Part shown: positions 726 to 8,245 of the stretch, one piece after another | How the letters are laid out: every line of letters begins with the position of its first letter | How positions within the stretch are numbered: the stretch's first letter is position 1 | Assembly (NCBI GenBank): GCA_016209155.1 | Contig: JACQWU010000336.1 | Coordinates: 1 to 8,245 of the forward strand | Direction of reading: 5' to 3' | Length of the DNA: 8,245 nucleotides | Origin: Candidatus Desantisiibacteriota bacterium | Lineage (GTDB): Bacteria > JACRDZ01 | Made by a program: the position numbers and the translations under genes | Notes under the pieces: model-generated | The model's input: the letters and a program-made list of their open reading frames with translations, nothing else | The model's database searches: none | What the model was told of the DNA's origin: nothing

Positions 726-1886
726 ATGGAAACTAAAGAATTATTAAAATTTATAAATAAAGGTGAAGACAGCAAAACGCAATTTAAAAGCAATATTAAT
801 AATTCAGAACAGCTCGCTCAGGAGATGACAGCTTTTTCAAATGCAAAAGGCGGGATTATCATTGTTGGAGTTAATGATGATTCAAATATAGTTGGGCTTT
901 CAAGCGAAGATATCAGAAGATTGAATCAATTGATTTCAAATACAGCAAACGAAAAAGTAAAACCGCCAATAACACCTTGTACTGAAATAATTAGTATTGA
1001 AAATAAAAAAATATTAACTATTAATATAAATGAAGGAATTAATAAACCTTATTGTACTAACGAAGGTATTTATTTTACTAAAGTCGGAGCGGACAAAAGA
1101 AAAATATCACAAGAAGAATTGCTAAGATTATTTCAAGAGTCAAATAAATTATATGCTGACGAAAAAATAATTTCAAGTTCAACTCTTAATGATATTGATG
1201 ATAAATTATTCGAGTCATTTTATAAAAAGCAATATGAAGAGGATTTAAAAGAAACCGAATTATCTTTAAAGAAAATATTAGAAAATTTGGGGCTTGCCGA
1301 AGGTGAAAAATTAAATTTAGCAGGTTTAATGTTATTTGGTAAAAATCCACAAAAATTATTACCTGCTTTTATTATTAAAGCTGTAAGTTTTGTTGGAAAT
1401 GATCCTGCAGGAACAACATTTAGAGACAGCGAAGATATACATGGAAATTTATCAGAATTATACAAAAATGGGATAGCTTTTTTATTGAGAAATCTTAAAA
1501 AAATTCAAATTTCCAATAATTTCAATGAACCGGGGGAATTAGAAATACCAAAAATTGTTTTAGAAGAAATTTTAGTAAATGCTTTAATACATAGAGACTA
1601 TTTTATTAATGCGCCTGTAAAAATATTTATTTTTGATAACAAAATTGAAATCGAAAATCCGGGCAAACTTCCGAATAACTTAACAATTGAAAATATAAAA
1701 AACGGTGTATCAAATATACGGAATCCGGTTTTAACATCTTTTGCATCGAAAATTTTACCATACAGAGGTGTAGGCACTGGAATTATAAGAGCAATAAAAA
1801 ATTATAAACAAATTGAATTCATTAATAATGTGGAAGTTGAACGTTTTAAAGTCATAATTAATAGAAGACAAAATGGACCCAATTGA
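726..1886 (+). CDS. AlbA_2 (Schlafen-type) ATP-binding protein with GHKL-like C-terminal half
   Basis: The protein has 386 residues. Residues 10-125 form an AlbA_2 domain: the entry motif GEDSKTQFK (13-21) followed by AFSNAKGGIIIVGV (36-49), the usual glycine-rich strand of this fold. The C-terminal half matches the HATPase_c_4 family: N-box EEILVNALIHRDY (280-292), ENPGKLP (310-316) and a glycine loop YRGVGTGI (346-353), as in GHKL ATPases. COG2865-type proteins like this are usually 380-480 residues and often end in a winged helix; this one stops soon after the ATPase part, so that domain is absent or very short. Known members are described as putative transcriptional regulators or nucleic-acid-binding ATPases, and several occur in defence loci. 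Its last 14 bases overlap the methyltransferase start, which implies coupled translation. By eye it is more AT-rich than the genes either side, so it may be a later insertion into a helicase-methyltransferase operon. The family call is firm; the job here is unknown. Confidence 0.93.
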   Translation: METKELLKFINKGEDSKTQFKSNINNSEQLAQEMTAFSNAKGGIIIVGVNDDSNIVGLSSEDIRRLNQLISNTANEKVKPPITPCTEIISIENKKILTININEGINKPYCTNEGIYFTKVGADKRKISQEELLRLFQESNKLYADEKIISSSTLNDIDDKLFESFYKKQYEEDLKETELSLKKILENLGLAEGEKLNLAGLMLFGKNPQKLLPAFIIKAVSFVGNDPAGTTFRDSEDIHGNLSELYKNGIAFLLRNLKKIQISNNFNEPGELEIPKIVLEEILVNALIHRDYFINAPVKIFIFDNKIEIENPGKLPNNLTIENIKNGVSNIRNPVLTSFASKILPYRGVGTGIIRAIKNYKQIEFINNVEVERFKVIINRRQNGPN

Positions 1887-4572
1887 TTTCCAATCTCCAT
1901 ATAAAAGATCAGAATATTTAAAGTTTTTAAACACCTCATTTCTTCCCGAAGATTTTGAAGAAGCAGATGAAGATTTAAATTATAGCACCGAACACATTCA
2001 AAGCGCTTATAAAATAGGTAATGTCTCTTCACTGGATTTAATAGTCTACGAACTGCATCATAAATCAGAAAATGATCCGCGTGTTTCAATATCGCGTGAT
2101 TCATTCCGGCTGCTTTCACAATATGGCAAATCAAGAGCGCTTATTTTTTTTACTTCCAAAAAACAGGATAATTTCCGTTTTTCTCTGGTAACAGTTGATC
2201 TTAAATGGGAAGAAGGAAAACGCGTAACAAAGGAATATTCCAATCCTAAAAGATATTCATTTTATCTTGGACCTGACACCAAAATTCACACACCTCTTGA
2301 ATATCTTATAAAAAAAGGCCGAGTAAAAGATTTTGAAGATTTAAAGAACAGGTTCTCAATAGAAGTTGTTAATAAAGAATTTTACACAAAGATTGCAGTA
2401 CTTTTCACCAAACTTGCTGGAGGTAAGCGCATAATTGGTAGAGAAAAAATTGATGATAACCCAGCTCTTATTCTGCCATCAACAAATGATGAAAATATTA
2501 GAAAAGAATTTACTGTTCGCCTTATCGGAAGGCTTGTATTTTGCTGGTTCTTAAAAAAGAAACATTCGGACGCCGGAATTTCTCTTTTGCCTGATGAGCT
2601 TGTTTCATCAGCTTCCGTGCAAAATAATAAAAATTATTATCACAACATTCTTGAGCCGCTATTTTTTCAGGCTTTAAATACTCCAGTTACAGAACGTAAA
2701 AAGCAATTTAAAAATAATCTCTGGGAAAATATTCCATTTCTAAACGGCGGTTTGTTTTCGCCGCATAATCATGATTTTTATGAACCGGGTGCTATGGAAA
2801 TATCAAAACATATTAATACACTTATTATTCCGGATGAGTGGATTTTAAAGTTATTTCAGGAATTTGAAACATACAATTTTACAATAGATGAAAATACATC
2901 AATTGATGTAGAACTTTCAATTGATCCGGAAATGCTCGGCAGAATATTTGAAAACCTTCTGGCAGAAATAAACCCCGCAACCGGAGAAACTGCCCGTAAA
3001 GCAACCGGCAGTTATTATACCCCGCGTCCTATTGTTGAATATATGGTTGATCAGAGTTTAAAAGAATATCTGCTTACAAAAACAAAAGTTGAAGAAAAAA
3101 AGATTATAGACCTTCTTGCTTATGAAAAAGAATATGTTGATTTAAAAGATAATGAAAAGAGTGAAATTATAAACGCTCTTGATACAATAAAAATTATTGA
3201 CCCTGCATGCGGAAGCGGTGCATTCCCAATGGGGATATTACAAAAGATGCTTCTTGTTCTTCAAAAAATTGATCCTGATTCAAAAGAATGGTTAAGTAAG
3301 CAAATATCAAAAATTGAAAATATTGATATGAGAAAAAAGACAAAAGAAAAGTTTAAGGGTGAAAACGTAAATTACATACATAAAATTGGAATTATACAAA
3401 ATGCGATATATGGGGTTGATATTCAGCCCATAGCAATTGAAATATCAAAACTCAGATTTTTCCTTTCGTTAATTGTTGATGAAAAAGTTGATGATGCAAA
3501 GGAAAATAGAGGAGTCGAACCTCTGCCGAATCTTGAATTTAAATTTGTATGCGCGAACAGTTTGATTGGATTGCCTAAAAATAATGAACAGATGAAAAAG
3601 GACGAACAGACAACATTGTTTGAAGCGGATAATGATATAACTTTGCTTAAAAATTTAAGGGATGAATATTTAAGAAGCTGGGGCAGTGAGAAAAAGAGAA
3701 TCGAAAAAAAATTTCAGGAAACACAAAGCCGTATGTTTCAGCATGGTATAAGCTGGGGTGGTAAAGATTCCCAGACCATGAAACTTTCACAATGGAATCC
3801 ATTTTCAGATGAAGCATGTGCATGGTTTGATATGGAATGGATGTTTGGAATAACTTCTCTTTCTCCTGCGGGAGATGGTGGATTTAATGTGGTGATAGGA
3901 AATCCTCCGTATCAGGGTTTTCATAAAATAAATAAATCACAAAAAAAACTTCTAATAGATTTATATGAATCTGCAAAAGGCAAATATGATTTTTATATTC
4001 TTTTTATAGAGAAAGGTTTTTATCTTTTAAACCAAAATGGATTTTTTATATTTATTTGTCCAACCACTTTTACAAAAAGAGAATATGGAAATAATATAAG
4101 GAAATTTTTACTTGTAAATACACAGTTATTTGAATTAATTGATTTTGAACATACTCAAATTTTTAATGAAGCAACAAATTATACAGGAATTTTTTCATTT
4201 AAAAGAGGAATATCACAAAATAACAAATTAAAATATAGAACAAATTTTTCTAATAAACCCATAGAAATACCTCAAAAACAATTGTCTGAAAACTCATGGA
4301 TATTCAGAGATTCCAAAGCAAGTCAAGTTATTAACAAAATTAGTAATAATATAAAATTAAAAGAAATTTCAATAATATCTGAAGGCATAGTTACCGGATC
4401 AAACGAATTATATTTAAGATCAGGGGAAGATTTATCTTTAAATAAATTTGAATTAACATATTTTCTTCCATGTTTTAGAGGAAGAGAAATAGATAAGTAT
4501 TATCACCGCAAGATGAAGATCATCTCCATCAAAAGTGTCCGAAATTTATGTCTTATTTATATAAAAATTTAG
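1873..4572 (+). CDS. Eco57I-class N6-adenine DNA methyltransferase, main part (ends early by frameshift)
   Basis: 899 residues are read before a TAG in a shifted frame. Residues 1-180 are an N-terminal domain of unclear function: DLIVYELHHKS (55-65), SRALIFFTS, then a NPKRYSFYLGP segment. A helical region follows with LNGGLF (291-295) and MLGRIFENLL (354-363). The methylation core has motif X, GSYYTPRPIV (379-388); SAM-binding motif I, DPACGSG (443-449); and catalytic motif IV, NPPY (677-680), which is the N6-adenine type. From about 780 the first half of a TaqI-like recognition domain is seen, up to CFRGREIDKYY. After that the residues (HRKMKIISIKSVRN...) no longer resemble the family, and the expected sequence continues in the -1 frame. 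The intact protein would be about 1079 residues. The start ATG overlaps the AlbA_2 gene by 14 bases with only a weak AGAAGA site. No clear PD-(D/E)XK or HNH nuclease motif is seen, so cleavage, if any, would come from the helicase partner. Confidence 0.93.
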   Translation: MDPIDFQSPYKRSEYLKFLNTSFLPEDFEEADEDLNYSTEHIQSAYKIGNVSSLDLIVYELHHKSENDPRVSISRDSFRLLSQYGKSRALIFFTSKKQDNFRFSLVTVDLKWEEGKRVTKEYSNPKRYSFYLGPDTKIHTPLEYLIKKGRVKDFEDLKNRFSIEVVNKEFYTKIAVLFTKLAGGKRIIGREKIDDNPALILPSTNDENIRKEFTVRLIGRLVFCWFLKKKHSDAGISLLPDELVSSASVQNNKNYYHNILEPLFFQALNTPVTERKKQFKNNLWENIPFLNGGLFSPHNHDFYEPGAMEISKHINTLIIPDEWILKLFQEFETYNFTIDENTSIDVELSIDPEMLGRIFENLLAEINPATGETARKATGSYYTPRPIVEYMVDQSLKEYLLTKTKVEEKKIIDLLAYEKEYVDLKDNEKSEIINALDTIKIIDPACGSGAFPMGILQKMLLVLQKIDPDSKEWLSKQISKIENIDMRKKTKEKFKGENVNYIHKIGIIQNAIYGVDIQPIAIEISKLRFFLSLIVDEKVDDAKENRGVEPLPNLEFKFVCANSLIGLPKNNEQMKKDEQTTLFEADNDITLLKNLRDEYLRSWGSEKKRIEKKFQETQSRMFQHGISWGGKDSQTMKLSQWNPFSDEACAWFDMEWMFGITSLSPAGDGGFNVVIGNPPYQGFHKINKSQKKLLIDLYESAKGKYDFYILFIEKGFYLLNQNGFFIFICPTTFTKREYGNNIRKFLLVNTQLFELIDFEHTQIFNEATNYTGIFSFKRGISQNNKLKYRTNFSNKPIEIPQKQLSENSWIFRDSKASQVINKISNNIKLKEISIISEGIVTGSNELYLRSGEDLSLNKFELTYFLPCFRGREIDKYYHRKMKIISIKSVRNLCLIYIKI
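4497..4547 (+). other. Frameshift zone in the methyltransferase gene (-1 relative to the upstream frame)
   Basis: The family-like sequence runs in the 1873 frame through CFRGREIDKYY (to about 4503) and resumes in the -1 frame from about KCPKFMSYL (4530 on). The -1 frame is open only from 4497, after a TAA at 4494-4496. Adding one base after the AAG at 4510-4512 would give YYHRKDEDHLHQKCPK, a plausible continuous protein. There is no homopolymer run and no X-XXY-YYZ slippery heptamer, which argues for a deletion or sequencing error rather than programmed slippage. A 6-bp hairpin, AGATGA-AGA-TCATCT (4511-4525), sits at the spot. Confidence 0.8.
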
Positions 4573-5111
4573 AGCTAATTAATGCAAGGAAATATTTTAT
4601 AAATTCAAACAAAAAATGGTATGAGTTATGGAATCAGAGAAATATTCTAAATTTTACTGTTTCTAAAATCATTACACCTGAATTATCTGACAGGAATAGA
4701 TTTTCAATAGCACCAGAAAATACTTATTATGGAGATACCGTTTGCGGTATTCAAATAAAAGATGAATATCAGAATGCAATACACTTGAGATATCTATTAG
4801 CGCTTTTAAATTCTAAATTAATTGAATGGTTTTATAAAAAAACCACAGTTCCAAAAGCTGGTGGATTTTTTATATATAAAGTTATGTATTTGAAAAATAT
4901 TCCGATACAAGAAATATCTGTATCGGAACAACAAACATTTATTAATCTTGTAGACAAAATTCTTTCCATCACCAAAGATGCCGATTATCCTGATAATTCT
5001 ATCAAACAAACCAAAGTCCACGACTACGAATGCCAGATTGATCAGATGATATATGAATTATATGGTTTGACGGAGGAAGAAATAAAGATTGTAGAAAATC
5101 TTAATAAATAG
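4548..5111 (+). CDS. Detached C-terminal target-recognition part of the Eco57I-class methyltransferase
   Basis: 187 residues count from the first ATG in this frame; the frame itself opens at 4497. It holds the second half of a TaqI-like specificity domain: KKWYELWNQRN, IITPELSDRNRFSIAP, then LLALLNSKLIEWFYK and LKNIPIQEIS, which are usual in these domains. It ends with a conserved helical tail (LVDKILSITKD ... IYELYGLTEEEIKIVE). In the family this domain reads the DNA target and is fused to the catalytic core; a free copy is not expected. No ribosome site precedes the ATG at 4548 (AAAAGTGTCCGAAATTT), so I read it as the severed end of the 1873 gene, not a separate gene. The sequence is otherwise undamaged, which points to a very recent mutation or an assembly error. 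TcmP starts 14 bases after its stop. Confidence 0.88.
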   Translation: MSYLYKNLELINARKYFINSNKKWYELWNQRNILNFTVSKIITPELSDRNRFSIAPENTYYGDTVCGIQIKDEYQNAIHLRYLLALLNSKLIEWFYKKTTVPKAGGFFIYKVMYLKNIPIQEISVSEQQTFINLVDKILSITKDADYPDNSIKQTKVHDYECQIDQMIYELYGLTEEEIKIVENLNK

Positions 5112-5125
5112 TGAGGCAAATATAA

Positions 5126-6022
5126 ATGAGAAATTGTAAAAGTGATAATTGCAAAGACAAAAATTCTAATTGTTCAATATTAGGTTCTGATTCTCTCCCA
5201 GTTCAATGTGTTGGTTCATGGGCGGAAGATAAATATTTCTATTTAGAAAAGTATTTAAATGCTTCACGTGAAGCAAGAAGAAAATTTTCAGACAGAGGGA
5301 ATGCTGTATTCATTGATTTATTTGCAGGCCCGGGAAAATGTGTTATTAGATATGAAGATAAAGAAATTGATGGCGGTGGAATTAAAGCTTTAAATAGAGA
5401 TGAAGCCCCATTTAATGAATATTATTATTTTGATATTAATGAAACCAATGTAAAAGCACTTGAAAAGAGAACAAGCAAATCATCAAATTGTCACATAAAA
5501 TGTGGCGACTCAAATGTTTTAATTAATGATTTAGTGAAAAAATTACTTGGGTATAGATTTAATAGATACCATTTTGCATATATTGATCCATTTGGCCCAG
5601 ATGCTTTAAAATTTAATACCATTCGAGAATTAGCAAAATTACAGAGAATGGATATGTTAATTCATTTCCCTATTGGTGCAATAAAAAGAAATATCCCTAA
5701 TTGGATTGATAAACCGAATAATATTCTAAATGAGTTTTTGGGTACAAATAAGTGGCGTGATAAAAGCAATATAAAAATGATTTACGATAAAACTTATCGG
5801 ATTTTAGTTGATATTTACAAGGAACAACTTTTGTCTGTTGGTTACCCTGAAGGTGGATTGAAATTTTCTGAGGAAGATATTTTGCCAGTAGTATCTGTAA
5901 AAAATACCAAAGATCGTGATTTATATGCCTTGATTCTTGTATCAAAGGATATTAAACTTGCTCAAAAAATATGGAACAGCATAATTAAATCAAATCTAGA
6001 CGGACAAGGGAGTCTTTTTTAA
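5126..6022 (+). CDS. tcmP: Three-Cys-motif partner protein TcmP (SAM-binding, methyltransferase-like)
   Basis: The protein has 298 residues. The N-terminus has four cysteines (C4, C9, C16, C28), then VGSWAEDKYFYLEKYL, the usual TcmP opening. FIDLFAGPG (62-70) is the glycine-rich SAM-binding loop of a Rossmann-fold methyltransferase, and YIDPFGP (152-158) sits where the catalytic motif IV strand lies. FPIGAIKRN follows in the region after this strand. Family knowledge: TcmP proteins are recurrent partners of radical-SAM-like proteins encoded next door, and the substrate is not known to me. The DPFGP motif is not the DPPY/NPPY of N6-adenine methyltransferases, so I would not assume DNA methylation. 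GTGAGG (5111-5116) lies nine bases before the ATG and overlaps the last base of the methyltransferase stop. The gene ends one base before the radical-SAM gene. The name is firm; the activity is inferred from fold motifs only. Confidence 0.92.
   Translation: MRNCKSDNCKDKNSNCSILGSDSLPVQCVGSWAEDKYFYLEKYLNASREARRKFSDRGNAVFIDLFAGPGKCVIRYEDKEIDGGGIKALNRDEAPFNEYYYFDINETNVKALEKRTSKSSNCHIKCGDSNVLINDLVKKLLGYRFNRYHFAYIDPFGPDALKFNTIRELAKLQRMDMLIHFPIGAIKRNIPNWIDKPNNILNEFLGTNKWRDKSNIKMIYDKTYRILVDIYKEQLLSVGYPEGGLKFSEEDILPVVSVKNTKDRDLYALILVSKDIKLAQKIWNSIIKSNLDGQGSLF
6006..6012 (+). promoter_or_regulatory. Ribosome binding site of the radical-SAM-like gene inside tcmP
   Basis: AAGGGAG lies within the last codons of tcmP, 11 bases before the ATG at 6024. 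The tcmP stop and this ATG are separated by a single base, so the two proteins are probably made by coupled translation in similar amounts. Confidence 0.55.
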
Positions 6023-6023
6023 A

Positions 6024-6803
6024 ATGCAAACTATTATTAGAAAATCACTTTTATATAAAAGCGAAGTAGAATACGCTGATTTTTGTTTAAATCATGTAGA
6101 GGGTTGTTCCCATGGTTGCAAGTATCCTTGTTATGCTTTCATGATGAAAAAACGGTGTGGAATTGTTAAAACTTATGAAGAATGGTGTCAACCAAAGATT
6201 GTTTCCAATGCATTAGATCTTTTAGATAAAGAAATACCAAAATATAAAAATAAAATAAATTATGTGCATTTATGTTTTTCTACTGATCCTTTTATGTATG
6301 AACAAGATCATGTAAGCGATTTAAGCTTGAAAATTATTGATAAACTTAATAGAAATAAAATTCGTTGCACAGTATTAACTAAGGGAATTTTTCCGGAAGA
6401 GTTAGGGAAAAGAAATGGGTTTAGCATTAATAATGAATATGGTATTACTTTAGTTTCTCTGGATGAAGATTTTAGAAAAGAATACGAACCCAATACCTCA
6501 AATTTTAAAGATAGGATTAGTTCACTTAAATATTTACATAAAAAAGGATTTAAAACATGGGTGAGCATGGAACCATATCCTACTCCAAATTTTATAAAAC
6601 AAAATTTTATTGAAATATTAAAATCAATATCTTTTGTTGATAAAATTATTTTTGGCAAATTAAATTATAATGCCAAAGCTTCTGAATTTAAACATGCAAA
6701 AGAATTTTATAATGAGCTTTCTTCTGTTGTTATTAAATTTTGCATGAAAAATAAAATTAATTATCACATTAAACAAGGAACGCAAATTAATGTGGAAAGT
6801 TAA
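6024..6803 (+). CDS. SPL-like radical-SAM-type protein, partner of TcmP (C-x3-C-x3-C motif)
   Basis: The protein has 259 residues. GCSHGCKYPCYA (27-38) is the iron-sulfur motif region, resembling the GCxHxCxYCY of spore photoproduct lyase relatives but with an extra proline, giving C28-x3-C32-x3-C36. Further landmarks follow the SPL-like barrel order: CFSTDPF (84-90), TVLTKG (116-121), ITLVSLDEDFRKEYEP (141-156), then RISSLKYLHKKG and WVSMEPYPTPN (179-189). The end, FGKLNYNAK ... INYHIKQGT, matches family members that I recognise as conserved. These proteins are expected to bind a 4Fe-4S cluster and SAM; known TcmP neighbours include radical-SAM/DUF5131 (phage Gp37/Gp68) types. The substrate is unknown; SPL relatives act on nucleic acids, which is suggestive only. 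The gene stops at a TAA, but the same frame stays open for 20 more codons. The fold call is good; the altered spacing leaves catalytic competence uncertain. Confidence 0.86.
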   Translation: MQTIIRKSLLYKSEVEYADFCLNHVEGCSHGCKYPCYAFMMKKRCGIVKTYEEWCQPKIVSNALDLLDKEIPKYKNKINYVHLCFSTDPFMYEQDHVSDLSLKIIDKLNRNKIRCTVLTKGIFPEELGKRNGFSINNEYGITLVSLDEDFRKEYEPNTSNFKDRISSLKYLHKKGFKTWVSMEPYPTPNFIKQNFIEILKSISFVDKIIFGKLNYNAKASEFKHAKEFYNELSSVVIKFCMKNKINYHIKQGTQINVES

Positions 6804-6866: not shown

Positions 6867-6880
6867 TTGATGATAAAATT

Positions 6881-6887
6881 AAGGAGG
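6881..6887 (+). promoter_or_regulatory. Strong ribosome binding site that decides the DUF262 start
   Basis: AAGGAGG lies nine bases before the ATG at 6897. Earlier in-frame starts (TTG 6867, ATG 6870) would place this perfect site inside the gene and lack one of their own, so 6897 is the start. This is the best ribosome site in the window and suggests the DUF262 unit is translated independently of the genes before it. Confidence 0.8.
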
Positions 6888-6896
6888 ATAAAACTC

Positions 6897-8027
6897 ATGT
6901 ATGATGAAAAAGAAAATGGGAAAGAAGATATTCAAGAAGAACCCGTCCAGAGTGAAATTGATGATTCAGAAAGCACTCCAGTTGAATTTGAAATAACGAC
7001 ATATCCGGCAGATTATACTCTTCAAGTTTATTATGAAAAATGGAAATCAGATGAAATTATTATTCCCACATTTCAAAGAAAATTTGTTTGGAAGCCATCA
7101 CAAGCATCTCGATTAATAGAATCATTTATGTTAGGCTTACCTATCCCGCAAATATTTATTTATACAGATAAAGAACAAAAATTATTAATTATTGATGGGC
7201 AACAAAGGCTTAAGAGTATATTCTATTTTTTTGAAGGTCTATTTGGCGAAGCGGATAAATCAGGTAAAAGAAAAGTATTTAATTTAGATTCGATAAATGA
7301 AAAAAGCAAATGGTTTAATAAAACATTTAATGATTTCACCGATGCTGATAAAAGAAAACTCAATAATTCTGTTTTAAGAGCTATAATTATAAAACAACTT
7401 GATCCTAATGATGATACAAGTGTATATCATATATTTGAACGCCTTAATACAGGTGGAACATTACTAAAAAATCAAGAGGTAAGAAATTGTGTTTATTCAG
7501 GTAAATTAAACGGATTACTGTTAAAATTAAATACATATCCAGCATGGAGAAAGATTTTAGGTAAACCTAAAGAAGATAGTAGTCAAAAAGATGTTGAACT
7601 TATATTAAGATATATCTCATTATTTCATCAAAAAGAAAAGGAAAAAGAAAATTATAAAAAGCCTATGAAGGATTTTTTATCATCTTTTATGAAAAAAAAT
7701 CGTAACCCTTCTGATAAATTTATTGAAGATGAAGAAAACCGTTTTAAAAAAACATGCGACTTAATAATTGCTCAACTAGGAGAAAAACCATTTAATCCAA
7801 GAGGAACATTAAATGTTTCATTTTTTGATTCTGTTTTTGTAGCTTTTGCAAAACATTTTGATAAATATCCCGATGATATTAAAGCTCGTTATGATAATCT
7901 TAAGTCTAATGCAGATTTTAACAAATACACAACCAGTTCAACTACTGATGTTGAAGTTGTAAAAAACAGATTAAAAATAGCTGCAGCAACACTTTTTGGG
8001 GAAAAAGATGAAACTGCAAAAAATTGA
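6897..8027 (+). CDS. DUF262 (GmrSD N-terminal/ParB-like) protein without HNH domain
   Basis: The protein has 376 residues. An acidic, probably disordered start (residues 1-32, rich in E and D) precedes a DUF262 domain: IPTFQRKFVWKPSQASRLI (56-74), FMLGLPIPQIFIY (77-89) and the signature IDGQQR (99-104), then IFERLNTGGTLL (179-190) with NQEVRN after it. In characterised relatives (GmrS, BrxU, SspE) this ParB/Srx-like domain binds and hydrolyses nucleotides through the DGQQR residues and gates an HNH nuclease (DUF1524) in the same or a partner protein. Here the remaining 190 residues are charged and helical, with no HNH/DUF1524 motif seen, so cleavage is not encoded in this protein in the usual way. 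The C-terminus overlaps the next gene by 20 bases, making that product the natural partner. The role as sensor or regulator in a defence unit is inference; the family call is firm. Confidence 0.95.
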   Translation: MYDEKENGKEDIQEEPVQSEIDDSESTPVEFEITTYPADYTLQVYYEKWKSDEIIIPTFQRKFVWKPSQASRLIESFMLGLPIPQIFIYTDKEQKLLIIDGQQRLKSIFYFFEGLFGEADKSGKRKVFNLDSINEKSKWFNKTFNDFTDADKRKLNNSVLRAIIIKQLDPNDDTSVYHIFERLNTGGTLLKNQEVRNCVYSGKLNGLLLKLNTYPAWRKILGKPKEDSSQKDVELILRYISLFHQKEKEKENYKKPMKDFLSSFMKKNRNPSDKFIEDEENRFKKTCDLIIAQLGEKPFNPRGTLNVSFFDSVFVAFAKHFDKYPDDIKARYDNLKSNADFNKYTTSSTTDVEVVKNRLKIAAATLFGEKDETAKN

Positions 8028-8245
8028 TTCAATGATTGAATTATGTAAAAATCATTTAGATAATACTAAAACAAAAGGAACCGAAATCGAATCAATCTTA
8101 ACCAAGTATCTTTTGGTATATATTTGTGGAGTGTTTGAAACTAAAATTAAAGAAATATTTATACAACGAGCATCTCAAACAGGAGATAAGCAAATAGAGT
8201 CATTTGTGAAAAATATAATTGAACAAAAAAATAGTTTTAAAATAG
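8008..8245 (+). CDS. Probable RiboL-PSP-HEPN (MAE_28990-type) protein, N-terminal part cut by window end
   Basis: The frame opens at ATG 8008, inside the last codons of the DUF262 gene, with GGGG at 7998-8001 six bases before it, and stays open to the window end (79 residues). A later ATG at 8032 has no ribosome site. The visible part is helical: a short charged first helix, then ESILTKYLLVYICGVFETK and IKEIFIQRA. This pattern (a hydrophobic helix with a conserved glutamate followed by an arginine) is what I know from the HEPN proteins that commonly follow DUF262 genes. HEPN proteins of this kind are metal-independent RNases with an R-x4-6-H motif, which would lie beyond the window, so activity cannot be judged. 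The 20-base overlap implies coupled synthesis with DUF262. Alternative: another helical partner of DUF262. Confidence 0.65.
   Translation, partial: MKLQKIDSMIELCKNHLDNTKTKGTEIESILTKYLLVYICGVFETKIKEIFIQRASQTGDKQIESFVKNIIEQKNSFKI

Follow-up and report, generated by a model that had tools for sequence, protein, structure and literature searches.

Proteins of the TcmP family carry the NCBIfam name 'three-Cys-motif partner', which derives from a three-Cys protein encoded next to them. PADLOC lists the same two-gene layout as PDC-M41A/B, with PDC standing for phage-defence candidate (PADLOC family names; PMC10855318), and its defence status is that of a candidate by gene neighbourhood. No phage-defence experiment on PDC-M41 was found in the literature searched, and a search of the open-access literature gave no paper describing a reaction of TcmP or of DUF5131. 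The usual partner of TcmP is DUF5131 (Gp37/Gp68). In this study, a TcmP gene followed by a gene for a radical-SAM (S-adenosylmethionine) protein was analysed in a stretch of 8,245 bases (the window), which begins at base 1 of contig JACQWU010000336.1 in a draft genome of Candidatus Desantisiibacteriota, a sparsely sampled phylum. Here, the partner belongs to a radical-SAM family with the cluster motif C-x3-C-x3-C.

Both PADLOC models matched the window genes, and the TcmP was of the same family (122 bits), while the PDC-M41B match of the partner was weak and partial (3e-5 over 109 residues) and was obtained without PADLOC's own thresholds. An earlier note on this DNA, made from the sequence alone, had offered the pair as an undescribed system; this part of the note was not upheld, since the NCBIfam name itself implies such a pairing and PADLOC lists it, so that the pair is already known as a named association and a proposed defence candidate. 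New are a partner family with an invariant C-x3-C-x3-C motif and the breadth of its distribution, the exchange between similar TcmPs of partners that differ in cluster spacing, and the split between a constant and a variable half. The pair is read here, with a probability of about 0.4, as a mobile two-enzyme system acting on a nucleic-acid base, in which TcmP would do the targeting and the radical half would supply constant chemistry. The features of the pair were as follows:

5126-6022, + strand: tcmP, 298 amino acids (aa); TIGR04474 122 bits (cut-off 53); PADLOC PDC-M41A 6e-21
5135-5209, + strand: N-terminal four-cysteine (Cys4) stretch of TcmP, C4, C9, C16 and C28 (C-x4-C-x6-C-x11-C)
6024-6803, + strand: radical-SAM partner, 259 aa, partial TIM barrel like that of spore photoproduct lyase (SPL); PF04055 43.6 bits (cut-off 29.5)
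6105-6131, + strand: cluster motif C28-S-H-G-C32-K-Y-P35-C36 (C-x3-C-x3-C with an inserted proline)
6273-6275, 6366-6368 and 6741-6743: C84, C115 and C240 of the radical-SAM partner

The C-x3-C-x3-C partner family and its linkage to TcmP

Fourteen bases separated the end of a methyltransferase fragment (5111) from TcmP, and one base separated the TcmP end (6022) from the partner. The sequence landmarks, the gene spacing, the four TcmP cysteines and C28-x3-C32-x3-C36 with its proline were all present as the earlier note had described them.

Relatives of the radical-SAM partner were obtained by scanning one genome per species, and the best 80 of 331 were retained (57-84% identity by scan). Their hosts were Omnitrophota, Nitrospirota, Nitrospinota, Myxococcota, Bacillota, Actinomycetota, Patescibacteria, Nanoarchaeota, Woesearchaeota and others, and family members were also present in viral contigs. 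With linkage counted as a TcmP within 1.5 kb of the radical-SAM gene, TcmP adjoined 84 of 96 relatives; without duplicates the figure was 78 of 90. TcmP lay upstream on the same strand in 75 loci, with a median gap of -1 base and a distance within 60 bases in 74 of the 75. For the reverse test, TcmP was sought in evenly drawn genomes of four large groups and was found in 14/391, 16/285, 37/396 and 48/297 of them (4-16%); no assigned reaction was found for it or for its three-Cys partner. Among the 87 sampled TcmP loci with sequence at hand, about 80 had a three-Cys partner within 1.5 kb. The partner types were DUF5131 with C-x6-C-x2-C (53), C-x3-C-x3-C (20), canonical C-x3-C-x2-C (6), a fragment (1) and none (7, several of them at contig ends). 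The co-occurrence that the earlier note proposed to check was found from both sides. The extra residue as a requirement for TcmP pairing was rejected, as TcmP also pairs with DUF5131 and, in some loci, with canonical partners.

The window partner read GCSHGCKYPCY, in which P35 is inserted before C36. An alignment of 87 radical-SAM sequences showed that C28, H30, G31, C32, P35, C36 and Y37 were invariant, and, with duplicates removed, all 92 close relatives that could be read, bacterial and archaeal alike, had C-x3-C-x3-C, leaving aside one further relative whose sequence begins past the motif. This invariance is no search artefact, because 27 of the 92 came to light only with the pattern EY[GA]D[YF][TC][ML]N, which is located ahead of the motif. 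The spacing, whose invariance was another check suggested by the earlier note, is thus not limited to the window sequence, and a quirk of that sequence or a frameshift was ruled out as the origin of the proline. A sister family (23-31% identity) read GCSHGCKY-CYA and had the canonical C-x3-C-x2-C in 15 of 15, the pattern used to pick it having contained part of the cluster motif; TcmP was not found in sister-family viral loci (E up to 1). Against SPL too, the proline was a one-residue insertion when the family profile was aligned to that of ten SPL proteins from clostridia (E 4.9e-8). All 92 relatives depart in this way from the canonical C-x3-C-x2-C of the radical-SAM superfamily. Other non-canonical cluster spacings exist in the superfamily, so the mismatch lowers canonical membership only. 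Further near-invariant cysteines of the C-x3-C-x3-C family were C84 (55/56), C115 (53/56) and C240 (55/56), and C115 was missing from the sister family. One review writes NifB as CX3CX3C in one sentence and as CX3CX2C in another (PMC9692996), the former probably being a slip.

The AlphaFold2 model of the partner had a mean predicted local distance difference test score (pLDDT) of 93.4, and its fold matches were all radical-SAM enzymes. The nearest solved fold was that of SPL (Z 19.4-19.6; 4fhc 19.6 over 236 residues, 3.0 Å), the next family scoring Z 15.3, and hhalign matched the partner family to SPL at E 4.9e-8. The hydrogen donor of the solved SPL is Cys140, a position taken from the C140A construct of the 4fhc/4fhg series. 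Its place is taken by an invariant Phe85, just behind Cys84, in the partner family and by Phe in the sister family too, and several clostridial SPLs are likewise without Cys140. The SPL resemblance named in the earlier note consequently held for the fold and failed at the hydrogen-donor cysteine; because of this replacement, SPL's own reaction is not to be presumed for the partner, and its membership of SPL was rejected. Membership of DUF5131 (PF07505) was also rejected, at 19.4 bits against a cut-off of 28.9 and with a motif other than C-x6-C-x2-C, and the Rv2578c and PA0069 equivalog profiles gave 41 and 37.7 bits, below their cut-offs of 430 and 360 bits, respectively.

Three variant loci (L numbers denote the loci compared) were also observed. 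On a Haloarcula taiwanensis plasmid (L200, 4890-8489), the pair occurs in an archaeal form with a canonical partner: TcmP faces a radical-SAM gene with the C-x3-C-x2-C motif, and another radical-SAM gene adjoins. At L061 (661-2652), two radical-SAM copies stand face to face, one of them reading PCSA instead of PCYA; one copy is accompanied by a TcmP in two pieces, and an Eco57I-like methyltransferase adjoins, as in the window. Genes resembling ThyX (flavin thymidylate synthase) lie within a few kb of TcmP-less radical-SAM genes at L047 (7711-8346) and L072 (11547-12134), which may be chance.

TcmP and the exchange of partners

The TIGR04474 match of the window TcmP covered profile positions 2-260 of 263, and the profile was matched by all 70 scanned TcmPs; TcmP length ranged from 266 to 421 aa. 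The window TcmP has a class-I methyltransferase fold, with motif I (IDLFAGPG) at residues 63-70 and motif IV (DPFG, within YIDPFGP) at 154-157. For its AlphaFold2 model (pLDDT 89.4), the leading folds were Trm1 (3axs, Z 15.3) and RlmJ (Z 15.0-15.2), with generic class-I methyltransferases at about 13 and RsmD also among the matches. RlmJ was listed weakly in a profile search of PDB sequences (E about 0.01), and a single-protein sequence search of viral contigs, a phage collection and the PDB found nothing useful for TcmP. Asp64 and Gly70 of motif I and Asp154 of motif IV were invariant in TcmPs, and their conservation suggests that TcmPs still have a working methyltransferase site. The TIGR04474 and PF04055 matches and the predicted folds point to a SAM-using fold in both proteins, as the earlier note had supposed. 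The four N-terminal cysteines are conserved within the subfamily of the window TcmP; they were found in TcmPs of L008, L010, L013, L016, L018, L023, L026, L030 and L035 and possibly form a zinc knuckle, and a C-terminal winged helix-turn-helix (wHTH) domain (PF22560) was found in 15 of 68 TcmPs. Both accessory modules are of nucleic-acid-binding type and vary between TcmPs.

Over 68 two-protein loci, the radical-SAM halves had a median pairwise identity of 61%, against 20% for the TcmPs. Where radical halves were more than 72% identical (215 locus pairs), the TcmPs were less than 30% identical in 143. The window shared 81% identity with L009 in the radical half and 28% in TcmP, against 80% and 62% with L008. 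The reverse was seen between L025 and L166, whose TcmPs were 64% identical and whose partners were 23.5% identical, one being C-x3-C-x3-C and the other DUF5131. DUF5131-paired rows were dispersed over the TcmP tree, with 8 changes for 10 rows, of which at least 6 were forced by well-supported branches. As judged from these trees and identities, the partners of TcmP have been exchanged during evolution. Two TcmPs per three-Cys enzyme were found in L096, in L150/L164, on Sinorhizobium meliloti pSymA and on a Burkholderia glumae plasmid; in L096 (6947-9765) and L150/L164, tandem, highly divergent TcmP genes precede one radical-SAM gene. The simplest reading is that the three partner kinds do one job and that TcmP supplies the case-specific part, which is probably the target. 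Exchange and the constant/variable pattern make TcmP targeting versus constant chemistry directly testable.

Genomic setting and possible roles

The genes around the pair in the window were as follows:

3-662: charged open reading frame, 219 aa, open at the window start, no convincing family match
726-1886: AlbA_2 (Schlafen-type) plus HATPase_c_4 protein, upstream of the methyltransferase and the pair
1873-4572, + strand: N-terminal part of a type IIG/Eco57I-like restriction-methyltransferase (Eco57I PF07669 2e-37; PADLOC REase_MTase_IIG 4e-75)
4548-5111, + strand: C-terminal fragment of the same type IIG gene, TaqI_C specificity domain (PF12950 8e-15)
6867-8027, + strand: DUF262/GmrSD_N protein, defence-type neighbour (PF03235 7e-30; PADLOC NsnA 5e-66, PD-T4-2_A 4e-52)

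The methyltransferase that the earlier note placed ahead of the pair was present, but as a type IIG/Eco57I-like gene split over two frames that overlap at 4548-4572, through a genuine frameshift or an assembly error; it is a neighbour and lies outside the TcmP/radical-SAM pair. AlbA_2/HATPase_c_4-like genes were also observed near the pair in L017 and L050. In the window, the DUF262/GmrSD_N gene is followed by the start of a HEPN-like gene (PADLOC PD-T4-2 B 4e-4) that is cut by the window end (6867-8245).

In 32 of 90 loci, restriction-type genes (type IIG, HsdM, Mod, Res, GmrSD/DUF262 and AlbA_2) lay no more than five genes from the pair. They made up about 52 of 649 neighbour genes, compared with 1 of 287 genes in a control set of 19 host-genome stretches (334 kb), a contrast inflated because the profiles were built from the neighbours themselves; independent Pfam and PADLOC scans of the neighbours named the same families. 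The pair was also found in viral contigs, prophage-like regions and conjugative plasmids. A transcription table lists SMa2243, the S. meliloti TcmP, with the phage-defence gene hna (SMa2245) (PMC12445080). On pSymA (L199, 3328-9148), a long open reading frame stands at the expected place of hna with TcmP right behind it, and a second TcmP faces it together with a DUF5131 gene. On a Leisingera plasmid, a DUF5131-TcmP pair adjoins two abortive-infection genes. The defence setting proposed in the earlier note is thus backed by the enrichment and by a patchy, mobile distribution, but several loci stand among housekeeping genes.

In the proposed mechanism, TcmP would recognise the target and methylate an exocyclic or ring nitrogen of a base, and the radical-SAM partner would then apply a 5'-deoxyadenosyl radical to the same base or to the new methyl group. 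TcmP would be the swappable half that sets specificity, and the radical enzyme would contribute chemistry that stays the same. Defence islands, plasmids and prophages would carry the system as an accessory, its most likely use being conflict with phages or other mobile elements, and in some lineages it could be under SOS-type control. This proposal draws on the computed linkage, motif invariance, folds, constant/variable asymmetry, exchange, patchy distribution and restriction-gene enrichment, and we infer SAM use, a base as target, the order of the two steps, TcmP as the targeting half and the conflict role. By their SPL and Trm1/RlmJ matches, both folds are those of enzymes able to work on nucleic-acid bases, and neither match amounts to proof. 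A bolder version, in which a widespread conflict system has a rewired-cluster radical-SAM enzyme aimed by interchangeable TcmPs at making a novel, two-step hypermodified DNA or RNA base, is regarded as doubtful.

Several points weigh against the base-modifying conflict system, besides the inflated restriction-gene contrast. About two thirds of loci have no restriction gene within five genes, several pairs lie among housekeeping genes, and the immediate neighbours are otherwise diverse. No nuclease or effector was found conserved beside the pair, and a restriction-style role would for this reason require partners elsewhere. For 12 of 90 relatives no TcmP lies next to the radical-SAM gene, some of these genes being at contig ends and some truly lone, and one host genome contains no TcmP anywhere. 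The substrate class is weakly supported, as the Trm1/RlmJ matches (Z 15) stand only about 2 above generic methyltransferases (13), and a reaction, substrate or phage phenotype is reported for no member in the literature searched.

A role in DNA damage, which the earlier note had named only as repair, is a serious alternative, although it is held to be unlikely. An SPL-like enzyme would use radical chemistry to reverse a lesion or adduct under SOS control, or allow it to be tolerated, TcmP would find or prepare the lesion, and proximity to defence genes would come from mobile elements carrying both gene kinds. The nearest solved fold, SPL, is a DNA repair lyase. In Mycobacterium tuberculosis, Rv2734-Rv2735c cluster in expression with recX-recA under mitomycin C (PMC5057432), and a TcmP domain is carried by BCG_2748c (PMC7387457), which by locus-tag arithmetic would correspond to Rv2735c. 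The B. glumae plasmid (L203, 2050-12460) carries two TcmPs, a Gp37/Gp68 gene and another radical-SAM gene, which adjoin ImuA-ImuB-DnaE2 and a dTMP kinase gene. LexA-like helix-turn-helix/S24-peptidase genes lie immediately upstream of TcmP operons in L024 (177-854), L029 (176-865) and L057 (517-1176), and one adjoins the pair in L240 (8614-9291); the LexA-flanked TcmPs belong to unrelated subfamilies. Such upstream genes are, however, confined to a few cases (3 of about 84 operons), no SOS gene was found within the window, and a motif search of 20 actinobacterial regions found no RecA neighbours of TcmP. The exchange of SPL's Cys140 for the invariant Phe85 also speaks against repair, and hypervariable, exchanged TcmPs with patchy presence suit conflict better than housekeeping repair. 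SOS control as such is compatible with both defence and repair.

The substrate might also not be a nucleic acid, the pair modifying a protein or making a small molecule. Class-I methyltransferases and radical-SAM enzymes of similar size act on peptides and metabolites too, fold similarity does not fix the substrate, and the fold lists include such enzymes. This is considered improbable, as the pair has no recurring neighbours of the precursor-peptide or metabolite kind, and a nucleic acid is favoured by the accessory wHTH and Cys4 modules as well as by the folds closest to each half. Self-marking, in which the pair would hypermodify the carrier element's DNA against host or rival nucleases, would fit a stand-alone cassette in viral contigs, prophage-like regions and conjugative plasmids, often beside restriction genes. 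It too is judged improbable, since most members are chromosomal in ordinary bacteria and archaea, association with phage DNA-modification genes was not seen, and the nearest folds of TcmP are RNA methyltransferases. A toxin-antitoxin-like or abortive module, in which one half would be toxic (for example by damaging tRNA through radical chemistry) and the other would hold it in check or steer it, is likewise improbable: the overlapping genes, the mobility, the Leisingera abortive-infection genes and the LexA-like regulators beside some pairs would suit it, but lone radical-SAM genes and two-TcmP loci exist, no likeness to known toxins or antitoxins was seen in either half, and the active sites of both are conserved like those of enzymes.

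Comparison with known systems

DUF5131/Gp37-Gp68 (PF07505) is distant kin of the window-type partner, with 86 of 87 members of the window family matching at E up to 0.01 (best 1.5e-8). It occupies the same place beside TcmP and is apparently interchangeable with the window-type partner, from which it differs in its C-x6-C-x2-C motif and in sequence (about 23% identity). The radical-SAM proteins Rv2578c and PA0069 have the barrel and conserved positions in common with the partner, at scores far below their cut-offs. SplB is the best solved fold (Z 19.6 vs 15.3) and its cluster region aligns; the partner differs in a motif one residue longer, in Phe85 for Cys140 and in length (259 vs about 340 residues). 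The canonical sister family (L101-L119) likewise has the barrel and the conserved positions; its motif differs by the proline alone, and no TcmP was found in its loci. The C-x3-C-x3-C family is a natural one-residue change in the best-known radical-SAM motif, with this sister family as a control.

The nearest folds of TcmP are Trm1 (tRNA m2,2G26) and RlmJ (23S rRNA m6A2030), at 10-12% identity and a Z about 2 above generic methyltransferases. A motif IV of the DPxG/DPPY kind is common to all three, and TcmP differs in being nearly always found with an adjoining partner enzyme. For two such enzymes working in turn, the wyosine pathway offers a parallel, in which a methyltransferase (Trm5) and then a radical-SAM enzyme (TYW1/Taw1) act on one base, the latter abstracting hydrogen from m1G after Trm5 (PMC7761594). 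These enzymes are not homologous to the TcmP/radical-SAM pair and serve as a mechanistic precedent only.

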